Assembly: GCF_004358105.1 (NCBI RefSeq)
Contig: NZ_SMYL01000012.1
Span: 1 to 64,000 of the forward strand
Source of the DNA: Sapientia aquatica
Lineage (GTDB): Bacteria > Pseudomonadota > Gammaproteobacteria > Burkholderiales > Burkholderiaceae_D
DNA: 64,000 nucleotides
Reading direction: 5' to 3'
How positions within the stretch are numbered: the stretch's first letter is position 1; each line of letters starts with the position of its first letter. Shown here in pieces: positions 52,236-55,743 of this stretch. The notes beneath the pieces are model-generated. The model had not been told where the DNA came from and made no database searches. It saw only the letters and a program-made list of their open reading frames with translations. Position numbers and translations under genes: made by a program.

Positions 52236-53321
52236 TTAAGTGGTGCGTATCTTTTTGCTGAATTCGTGCACCGCGTCAACTAACACTTCGACCGATTGCG
52301 GCGCAGTAAATTGAGAGATACCGTGACCCAAATTAAAGACATGACCGCTGTCGGCAGACGGTTTGCCAAAGCTTTCAATCAATTGTTGCACCTGCGCACG
52401 GATTTGATCGGGATTGGCAAACAGCGCCATCGGATCGAGATTGCCTTGTAGGGCCACTTTATGACCAATTTGAGCGCGTGCCTGACCTAAATTGACTGTC
52501 CAGTCCAACCCAACGGCATCGGCGCCTATATCGGCGATTTGATCAATCCACAATCCACCGCCTTTGGTAAAGACGATCGACGGAATGGAAACGCCATTTT
52601 TTTCTTTTTTCACTAAACGCACCACTTCGCGCATGTAATTCAAGGAAAACTCTTGATAAGCACCGTCGGCCAAGACGCCGCCCCAGGAATCAAAAATCAT
52701 GACCGCTTGCGCGCCCGCATCGATTTGGGCGTTTAAATACGTTGCGACCGCTTGCGCGTTCACACGCAAAATGTGATGCATCAAATCTGGACGGTTGTAC
52801 AACATCGTCTTAATTGTGCGGTAGTCTTTCGAGCCGCCGCCTTTGACCATGTAACAGGCCAAAGTCCACGGGCTGCCGGAAAAACCGATCAGCGGAACAC
52901 GGCCATTTAACGTATTCCGAATTTGCGTAACCGCATCGAATACGTAGTTCAACTTGTTCATATCTGGCACTTGCAACGCCAAAATATCTTTTTCGTCCTG
53001 CAACGGGCGCTCAAACTTAGGGCCTTCGCCGTCTTCAAAATACAAGCCCAATCCCATCGCGTCTGGGACAGTCAAAATGTCCGAAAACAGGATCGCCGCA
53101 TCTAACTTGAATCGGTCTAAAGGTTGAATCGTGACTTCGGTTGCGTAGTCTGGATTCTTGGCCAGCCCCATGAACGAACCCGCTTTTTGTCTTACAGCAC
53201 GATATTCAGGCAAATAACGGCCCGCTTGACGCATTAACCAGACCGGCGTGTGCTCGGTAGGCTGACGGCGCAAGGCGCGCAGGAAAGTATCGTTCTTTAA
53301 TGGGACGTCGTTAAATGCCAT
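52236..53321 (-). CDS. hemE: Uroporphyrinogen decarboxylase
   Basis: 361 residues. Converts uroporphyrinogen III to coproporphyrinogen III in haem synthesis. [16 protein letters not shown] and [20 protein letters not shown] are the two family signatures, with [16 protein letters not shown] near the C-terminus. It stands alone between two long AT-rich gaps, upstream of priA. Confidence 0.97.
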
Positions 53322-53450: not shown

Positions 53451-53812
53451 CTTTGTGAATAGATTTCAAAACTAAGTCAATATCTTTTTTCCAAATGCTT
53501 GATTGAAAGCATCATGTAAGTCGCAAAAATGGATTTATCTCAATTCAATCAATCAGTTACAGAGTTTTCTTAATTTAGAGTTTTACCTGTTCACAGTTTC
53601 TAACCATTTGCCGATTTTTGTGCATAACAATTGCTGGCTGGACTTCTTGCAAGCCTATATTTCATGCTCGTTGCAAGGCTGTTTTGACCTGAAAGCGTGA
53701 ATATACGTAGAAATACGTAGCAGCTCGTTGAATTGATCGACATTAGCCGACGATTCCAATTTGGGGACTTTGTCCTACAAGCATCTCTTGGCCCAACGTA
53801 AGATTTTGTCTG

Positions 53813-53844
53813 ACAAAAAAAATGCCCAACTAGTCGCTGGGCAT
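53813..53844 (-). terminator. Intrinsic terminator of the candidate small RNA
   Basis: On the minus strand ATGCCCA / TGGGCAT (53844-53838 with 53828-53822), a 9-base loop, then eight T residues. It is the best terminator in this gap. It has no protein gene closer than the DUF2798 gene 228 bases upstream. Confidence 0.85.
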
Positions 53845-53939
53845 GAATCCTTTATAACAACAAGGAGGAGGAGACGTTCGGTGCAATGTATTTATTTGTT
53901 GTTACTTCTTCGATACAGAGCAATATATATTCTTTGTGA
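53814..53939 (-). ncRNA. Candidate small RNA with looped anti-Shine-Dalgarno motif
   Basis: On the minus strand a promoter-like TTGTAA (53973-53968), 16-base spacer and TATAGA (53951-53946) would start a transcript near 53939. It could fold a 9-bp stem TAACAACAA / TTGTTGTTA (53904-53896 with 53863-53855). The 32-base loop contains UCUCCUCCUCC (53874-53864), a perfect anti-Shine-Dalgarno sequence. The RNA ends in a strong terminator at 53844-53813. No protein frame fits. Such architecture recalls the toxic anti-SD small RNAs reported from betaproteobacteria; membership is unproven. The opposite-strand reading, an unusually strong ribosome binding site, leads to no real gene. Confidence 0.55.
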
Positions 53940-54072
53940 AATAAATCTATACCCTATTTAGGGCATTTTACAAAAATTAAAAGAGCTGTTTTTCACTCGA
54001 GTAATTTTTATCTCACGTAGTTATCTTAATGGCCTTGTGTTTCCTGCTCATGACGTAACGATTAAATTGACG

Positions 54073-54762: not shown

Positions 54763-55743
54763 ATGAACTTTCTTACTTTAGATCTCAATTTATTGCGCGT
54801 CTTTGATGCCGTCATGATCGAGCAAAATCTGACGCGCGCCGCCGATAAATTGGCGATGACGCAGCCAGCAGTCTCGAACGCGTTAAAACGTTTGCGCCAC
54901 GCATTCAATGATGAATTATTAATTCGCACAGCCTACGGCGTAAAACCAACTCCACGCGCCGAAAGCGTTTGGCCTGCGATTCGTGAAGCGTTAAGTAAGC
55001 TCGAAGCAGCGATCGCGCCGCCCACGTTTGATCCGTCAACGGCAATTGCCTCGTTCAGAATGGCGATGGCCGATTCAACCGCGGCTTACTGGATGCCATA
55101 TCTCGTGCGCGAAATTGAGAAAACTGCGCCCGGCATCAATGCGCGCATGGTGCCGCTAACAACCCGCGATCCGCGCAATATGCTGCTGCACGGCGACATT
55201 GATATTGCGGTGGGATTTTTCCCAGGCGTAGTGTCGCAAATGACCGGAGGACAAAGTTCGACCAATAACGCGATTCGCCACGCCAGCTTGTATACAGGTC
55301 GCTATGTATGTGTGATGCGTAAAGATCATCCTTTGGCCAATGAACCGCTGACCTTGGACAACTATTGCAACGCGCATCATTTATTGGTGAGTTTCTCAGG
55401 CAGAGCGCACGGCTTAATTGACGAGATTTTGAACGGCATTAACCGCCAACGTCATATTTTGCTAACCGTAAATCAATTTTTTACGGCAGGTCGGGTCGTT
55501 GCTAGCTCGGATTTATTGACCGTGTTGCCGCACCATTTGATTTCGTCCACCGGTGTGCAAAATCAATTGATCTGGAAAGAATTGCCAATCGCAACGCCAG
55601 CGGTCAATGTGGATATGTTGTGGCACGAGCGCGAGGCGCGCAATCCAGCGCATCGTTGGCTAAGAGAGAATTTAATGAGCTTGGTGGAAATGACCTTAAA
55701 TTCGGAAAATCCCCAAATCGAACATCAACATGCGCTGATTTAA
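54763..55743 (+). CDS. LysR-family regulator
   Basis: 326 residues. Helix-turn-helix LDLNLLRVFDAVMIEQNLTR and AADKLAMTQPAVSNALKRLR, then a PnrR/NodD-like effector domain. Divergent from the two small membrane-protein genes, which are its likely targets. The inducer is unknown. A strong terminator follows. Confidence 0.9.
   Translation: MNFLTLDLNLLRVFDAVMIEQNLTRAADKLAMTQPAVSNALKRLRHAFNDELLIRTAYGVKPTPRAESVWPAIREALSKLEAAIAPPTFDPSTAIASFRMAMADSTAAYWMPYLVREIEKTAPGINARMVPLTTRDPRNMLLHGDIDIAVGFFPGVVSQMTGGQSSTNNAIRHASLYTGRYVCVMRKDHPLANEPLTLDNYCNAHHLLVSFSGRAHGLIDEILNGINRQRHILLTVNQFFTAGRVVASSDLLTVLPHHLISSTGVQNQLIWKELPIATPAVNVDMLWHEREARNPAHRWLRENLMSLVEMTLNSENPQIEHQHALI

Follow-up and report, generated by a model that had tools for sequence, protein, structure and literature searches.

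Genes and features at the locus

The window, that is, the whole stretch of 64,000 nucleotides analysed here, lies on contig C3 of the 4.43 Mb genome of Sapientia aquatica (G000), which forms the genus group of this study together with G001, G002 (Solimicrobium silvestre), G003 and G004. The feature under study is between a gene on the minus strand (52236-53321), which we take to be hemE from reading its sequence rather than from a family search, and a LysR-type regulator gene on the plus strand (54763-55743), whose product shows 89% identity to its S. silvestre counterpart and which marks the locus in other genera in the related-locus search. All the minus-strand features listed by the first-pass annotation are present at the coordinates it gave: the hexamers TTGTAA (53973-53968) and TATAGA (53951-53946), separated by 16 nt; a 12-bp palindrome (53952-53963) inside this spacer; the arms of a 9-bp stem, TAACAACAA (53904-53896) and TTGTTGTTA (53863-53855); the anti-Shine-Dalgarno (anti-SD) stretch UCUCCUCCUCC (53864-53874); and an intrinsic terminator (53815-53844), with a stem at 53844-53822 and a T run to 53815, which is also a match of the terminator scan. 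On the plus strand, the only frame that could use AAGGAGGAGGAG as ribosome binding site (RBS) is an ORF of 17 codons that is unconserved in S. silvestre, and a plus-strand gene using GGAGGAGGAG as RBS was rejected on the same grounds. A small RNA (sRNA) gene is the best reading of the locus features, and its transcription is what we infer from them.

The dispersed palindrome, its candidate regulator and the proposed promoter

The 12-bp palindrome belongs to a 7-2-7 palindrome, TGCCCTA-AA-TAGGGTA (53950-53965, minus strand), proposed here as a NarL-type activator site from its dispersal and from aligned -10 elements. When the sRNA region was used in a DNA search, its promoter part matched other places in the own genome. 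The motif is TGCCCTA-WW-TAGGGCA and its core, CCCTA(AA/TT)TAGGG, is found at 23 sites in the own genome and 36 in S. silvestre, with both full heptamers in 16 and 31 of them, respectively; the sRNA site shows one mismatch to the full 7-2-7 form, which counts against our main reading. These 59 sites were selected on an exact core and given their orientation from the flanks alone; all have AAT ahead of the palindrome arms and AT behind them, in favour of that reading, and the flanks are AAT(G/A) before and (C/T)AT after, followed mostly by AG. The long form AATGCCCTAWWTAGGGCAT occurs in four of 392 family genomes, all of the genus group (11+11, 17+21, 2+1 and 2+1 strand matches; none in the fifth member), and its reversed control in none, again in favour; among 185 class genomes only the window's own contains it. 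Less favourable are the counts with up to two mismatches, nine against one in the control for G003, five against six for G001 and three against six for G004, so that G001 and G004 are not above the reversed control when one or two mismatches are allowed. Only six of the 23 sites, the sRNA site included, have a likely S. silvestre counterpart within flanks of about 2 kb, one of them recognised by a single distant gene, which is also unfavourable; turnover of motif sites seems to be high. One search with the palindrome string gave no match in the bacterial regulation literature, as judged by titles. A single IMG/VR contig contains the exact motif (L234 2668-2686).

An operon encoding a response regulator (RR) and a histidine kinase (HK) is present in the four motif-bearing genomes of the genus, and in each a motif site is 76-171 bp past the HK gene, in support of the main reading. 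The G000 kinase has a HisKA_3 domain (28.6 bits, cut-off 24) and a 7TMR-DISM_7TM match under the cut-off (20.1 bits against 29). Response_reg and GerE domains were found in the three RRs scanned, the fourth being read from its translation only, and HTVARHVKKIY is identical in all four. The HK search covered 39 genomes and the motif search 392 of the family plus 185 of the class, sets that overlap only partly. Of the 39, five have the kinase at E<=1e-60: the four motif-bearing genomes and the distant G073 (33% identity), which shows two near-matches to the motif against one in the control and whose RR differs in the HTH. The kinase was not found in G001, motif-free and 81% complete, nor at that threshold in any other of the 19 motif-free family genomes searched for both (G001 and G005-G022). 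Computed over the 23 genomes searched for both, kinase and motif co-occur with a Fisher p of 1e-4, a value that is suggestive only, since the genomes are related; within the genus (four with, one without) p is 0.2, which weakens the main reading, as does the finding that none of the four stretches has a core site ahead of the RR gene.

The 7-2-7 geometry is NarL-like, and by this analogy the RR would be the activator that recognises the motif. The heptamer consensus of E. coli NarL differs from the window motif heptamer. As described in PMC7419079, E. coli NarL binds 7-2-7 sites and activates from -44.5, which agrees with the main reading, and at the ogt and yeaR promoters inverted heptamers of this layout abut the -35 region or are just upstream of it; a promoter with a single -44.5 site is active there but not coupled to nitrate, which does not agree with it. 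The E. coli system also differs from that of the window in its kinase and its regulon. It is possible, if rather unlikely, that the sRNA and the activator motif are real and the activator is another dimeric protein, of CRP/FNR type or of another LuxR type: the palindrome also fits the 16-bp layout of two half-sites of the CRP kind, G003 and G004 have few sites although they have the RR, and the co-occurrence within the genus is just four to one. Against another protein are the site right past the HK gene in all four genomes, the 19 motif-free genomes in which the HK is missing and the 7-2-7 geometry itself.

The first-pass annotation had read TTGTAA-N16-TATAGA as a promoter-like pair with a possible repressor site in the spacer, leading to a transcript of about 125 nt. 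The two hexamers and their spacing are indeed present. At the 59 sites, however, the first hexamer after the core is CATAGC in 18, CATAGA in 11 and TATAGA in three, the hexamers before the core vary widely, and a TANNNT element is found about 22 bp past the TATAG flank at most sites. Counted from the palindrome, 44 of the 59 sites have a TANNNT at offset 37, against a mean of 1.3 and a maximum of 5 at offsets from 50 on, which supports the main reading; five of 59 have it on the opposite side, and 48 if either side counts, where the background mean is 2.3 and its maximum 6. The window shows its proposed -10 element, TATATT (53922-53927, minus strand), at offset 36 and S. silvestre at offset 38, neither of them at 37, the mode of the genus group, a point against that reading. 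TATAG being the flank of the dispersed motif and TANNNT being aligned behind it, TATAGA is read as motif flank; the -10 element would come 24 bp after it, giving an RNA of about 100 nt instead of 125. With the -10 element at -12 to -7 the motif is centred at about -43.5, and the window site at about -42.5. A TANNNT at fixed offset from a palindrome would be the layout of an activator site, which the supposed repressor site resembles in position and geometry, and the earlier reading of promoter and repressor site is probably wrong; we give a sigma-70 promoter with a repressor in its spacer little credence. A sigma-70 scan of 53700-54060 found no promoter against 0.9 expected, under a rule that demands T at position 6 of the -10 element and that TATAGA therefore cannot satisfy.

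Slightly less probable still is a reading without a regulator, in which the palindromes would be short repeats scattered over the genome or terminators working in both directions. T runs do arise from some flanks, the palindrome is the second of two terminator-like sites that the scan of 53700-54060 reported (0.3 expected), and most sites are unshared between the own genome and S. silvestre. Repeats or terminators do not account for an alignment that spans only about 24 bp plus a -10 element at fixed spacing, mostly on one side (44 against five of 59 sites), nor for the centres, which are only AA or TT among the exact WW-pattern matches listed; the terminator or repeat reading was rejected on the aligned -10 element.

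The predicted small RNA, its probable family and its fold

With an activator-type promoter at TATATT, the predicted sRNA of about 100 nt covers 53815-53915 on the minus strand, its start being estimated from the -10 element (+/- 3 nt) and its end set by the U run; the terminator and the RF02278 match are further evidence for it. RF02278, the Betaproteobacteria toxic or double-hairpin sRNA, is the best Rfam family at 53816-53876 (minus strand), where CU-rich segment, weak hairpin and terminator are aligned by cmscan from end to end of the model (1-64 of 64; 35.4 bits; E 1.4e-5 for 401 nt against 4227 families and 3.5e-5 in the own genome). This full-length match supports the earlier proposal of a minus-strand sRNA gene of the betaproteobacterial toxic or double-hairpin type with a CU-rich anti-SD stretch. 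The Infernal search suggested for it thus gave the alignment, with five model pairs broken and a score under the curated gathering score of 50; at gathering thresholds Rfam shows nothing in the window, contrary to the main reading. Three siblings in the own genome score better, with 43.4, 40.1 and 39.9 bits (C44:61678, C44:61521 and C33:317981, two in tandem), all below 50 too, and two of the five genus-group genomes have a copy above the cut-off. With a threshold of E<=1e-5, 40 of 59 related genomes contain the family, 36 of them above the cut-off, and none of 14 control genomes does, which favours the main reading; at E<=1 the family also matches in 11 of the 14 controls, which does not. RF02837 (anti-hemB) has, like the window, a CU-rich stretch and a terminator, but the window match of 24.3 bits is under its cut-off of 49.5 and most of the first two hairpins of the model are deleted in the alignment.

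A model, R1, was built from 12 genus-group siblings with the window locus left out. At E<=1 its sole match in the window is 53815-53876 on the minus strand (21.5 bits, E 0.0066 in 294,277 bases), and in 27 sources it has 10 matches (L176 was left out, being on the same contig as L034): full-model matches in L197, L198, L196, L034, the window and L179 (E 0.068), and matches to the terminator part only in L200 and, three times, in L188. RNAalifold modelled only the terminator as structure in the 12 siblings, and R1 is therefore a weak test of hairpin 1, to the detriment of the main reading. On this sequence evidence the RNA is a divergent member or a near relative of the known RF02278 family. 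That this is some unrelated RNA, or DNA that is not transcribed, in which a CU run precedes a terminator by chance, as the score under gathering and a hairpin 1 unlike that of the siblings might suggest, is highly improbable given the full-length alignment at a genome-wide E of 3.5e-5, the single R1 match of the window and the linked copies in other genera.

These sRNA-like copies are upstream of the same LysR gene in S. silvestre, two Oxalicibacterium (L196 and L197) and a Burkholderiales MAG (L198), and have CTCCTCCT, AAGG and a T run in common. R1 finds L196, L197 and L198 with E values of 8e-6 to 5e-5, whereas RF02278 at E<=0.1 reports L198, L034 and L197 and misses L196, a point against the main reading. 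UCUCCUCC is present in six of 26 LysR loci (3 kb upstream searched, 2 kb for L188): L176 (= S. silvestre), L196, L197 and L198 resemble the sRNA and L192 and L200 do not. In the stretches of 2-3 kb searched it is absent from the other 20, the close relatives L177-L179 included, which is again unfavourable. No hemE was found in the retrieved stretches of L196-L198; therefore the sRNA is linked to LysR and not to hemE. In S. silvestre an insert of 106 bp with inverted ends separates the promoter from the sRNA core, which suggests that the 3' module would be the part that matters. Where the motif occurs at this locus, in the window's own genome and, despite the insert, in S. silvestre, it lies upstream of the sRNA, in agreement with the main reading. 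The element is L034 4072-4177, and similar copies are L182 758-858 and L135 1781-1891, with 82% and 71% identity.

In the fold of the 100 nt from the inferred start, the 9-bp stem (RNA arms UAACAACAA and UUGUUGUUA) forms with a mean pair probability of 0.965. The anti-SD stretch has unpaired probabilities of 0.92-1.0 at 10 of 11 positions and 0.53 at the first, and is thus predicted to be exposed in the window RNA. An unpaired CU-rich stretch before hairpin 1, a trait of RF02278, is present in the window folds, and the terminator hairpin, another family trait, comes directly after, according to cmscan and the terminator scan. The 127-nt fold (z -1.94; 11 of 200 shuffles fold equally well) shows no 9-bp stem and has instead, in its minimum-energy structure, a hairpin of the RF02278 type at 53848-53866 on the minus strand, UCCUU (53866-53862) with AAGGA (53852-53848), which leaves UCUCCUCC open; in the 100-nt fold this hairpin is 3.2 kcal/mol worse than the 9-bp stem. 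S. silvestre, the sole close orthologue, retains both UCCUU/AAGGA arms, and by eye keeps the 3' arm UUGUUGUU of the 9-bp stem and has no 5' arm. Its anti-SD stretch is much less open when folded (0.22-0.92) and in L196-L198 the stretch is mostly paired past its first bases, both at odds with the main reading. With these less open folds and the missing 5' arm, a conserved structure is left without support: the proposed 9-bp stem stands in the sequence and in the 100-nt fold, and lacks support from the comparison. In nine siblings three of eight terminator pairs change on both sides, a number reached by 93 of 500 shuffles, and the terminator covariation score is reached by 0 of 500, while hairpin 1 is invariant in alignment A3, which is hence neutral as to its conservation.

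The sRNA had been suggested to pair with RBSs broadly. AGGAGGAG at 2-10 nt before ATG occurs three times in the own genome against three in the reversed control, and nine against four times in S. silvestre; RBSs with long complementarity show no excess, which is against the main reading, and a target search by extended SD complementarity yielded nothing. With the count in the own genome no higher than the control, a global attack on translation is unsupported and a limited target set is more likely.

Known systems, proposed mechanism and putative regulon

The RF02278 sRNAs of Burkholderia cenocepacia (ncS03, ncS05, ncS27 and ncS62) and Herbaspirillum seropedicae have, like the window RNA, an unpaired CU-rich stretch complementary to RBSs, a hairpin, a terminator and several copies per genome, as described in PMC5688073, PMC4603805 and PMC7011215. 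Three of the four B. cenocepacia copies have an upstream motif in common (PMC5688073). The window RNA differs from these copies in its 35.4 bits, under 50, its three CUCC units and its promoter with a 7-2-7 palindrome. Toxicity of RF02278-type sRNAs is reported via PMC4603805 and PMC5688073; the latter describes slower growth of B. cenocepacia on overexpression of ncS27 and the opposite effect for the reverse complement of its CU-rich 5' end. S17/S17S of Bordetella pertussis, according to PMC11722255, has an RF02278-like 3' module that, like the one proposed for the window, directly represses an mRNA: S17S represses a target directly, and its effect on E. coli growth is a modest impairment as stationary phase begins. 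Its higher level in Bvg+ mode may be likened to the regulation proposed for the window, but S17 is processed by RNase E and has a promoter unresponsive to BvgA in vitro (PMC11722255), whereas the proposed window promoter holds an operator-like palindrome. The NmsR sRNAs of Neisseria resemble the window RNA, by description, in their unpaired CU-rich stretches complementary to RBSs and differ in being two tandem copies (PMC5688073). By analogy with ncS27 and S17S, the window sRNA may act on mRNAs in a similar way. BvgA belongs to the NarL family.

The interpretation that we favour, at slightly better than even confidence, is that of a divergent RF02278-family sRNA under a genus-specific promoter activated by a NarL/FixJ-type RR, lowering the translation of a limited set of mRNAs. 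The 3' module, made of CU-rich stretch, weak hairpin and terminator, would pair, probably aided by Hfq, with the Shine-Dalgarno regions of a few mRNAs, which would then be translated less. In the genus group, a genus-specific promoter of the activator type would have come to drive the window copy. A dimeric RR of the NarL/FixJ type, most probably the product of the gene in one operon with that of the HisKA_3 (7TMR-DISM-like) kinase, would bind TGCCCTA-WW-TAGGGCA and, centred at about -43, aid RNA polymerase at the -10 element TATATT. The sRNA would then be a repressing arm of a regulon in which numerous exported or surface proteins and an HD-GYP protein are also found. Of this picture, the family relation, the dispersed motif, the aligned -10 element and the co-occurrence with the kinase come out of the computations, whereas transcription, activation, the identity of the regulator, Hfq and the targets are deduced. 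More tentatively, and at a little under even confidence, a two-component system confined to the genus, whose 7-2-7 DNA code is its own, may have taken over one copy of a widely conserved RBS-blocking sRNA family, so that tens of genes go up while others are repressed. Surface, c-di-GMP and C1-metabolism genes might, at that same level of confidence, be activated by one signal, the siblings in the same genome keeping other promoters.

The putative regulon was derived from the 59 sites, 49 of which gave a downstream protein by a length rule, with 48 in the family scans (L101 was dropped). Families were named from the first 25 of 77 Pfam and 403 NCBIfam families, and single gene assignments may be wrong. 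Among the matches listed, the downstream genes encode an HD-GYP/DUF3391 protein (in G000 by Pfam, in G002 by 69% identity and in G004 by eye), a dTDP-glucose dehydratase, a 5-formyltetrahydrofolate cyclo-ligase, a formate-tetrahydrofolate ligase, S9 and S41 peptidases, a pilin-domain protein and a type I secretion ATPase; lipoprotein-like proteins were recognised downstream of motif sites by eye. Membrane-like proteins of about 175-180 aa, alike by eye, are also behind motif sites (L098 1449-1985, L103 1425-1961 and L152 1576-2100); that of L098, the one scanned, has no Pfam match. The gene after such a protein in G003 is presumably FolE-like.

What looks new is the wiring, with one family copy inside an apparently genus-specific activator regulon. 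The 40 relatives with RF02278 sRNAs often have several copies, whose control is little known, and the cause of sRNA accumulation in B. cenocepacia is called unknown in PMC5688073. One copy with an operator common to tens of sites and a concrete candidate regulator would allow signal, regulator, sRNA and targets to be tested together in a single cultured species. Sibling sRNAs also form tandem arrays (G001:C170:2481-3105, G000:C44:61521-61745 and G003:C23:32676-32896), with a GAATATCTGATATG-like dyad upstream of each and TATAG(T) right before UGUCUCC, by eye; the dyad looks like another operator, distinct from the first. At the LysR locus of a relative, L179 3246-3284 (plus strand) gives a sub-threshold match to Hrs1 (RF02628) of 31.4 bits.
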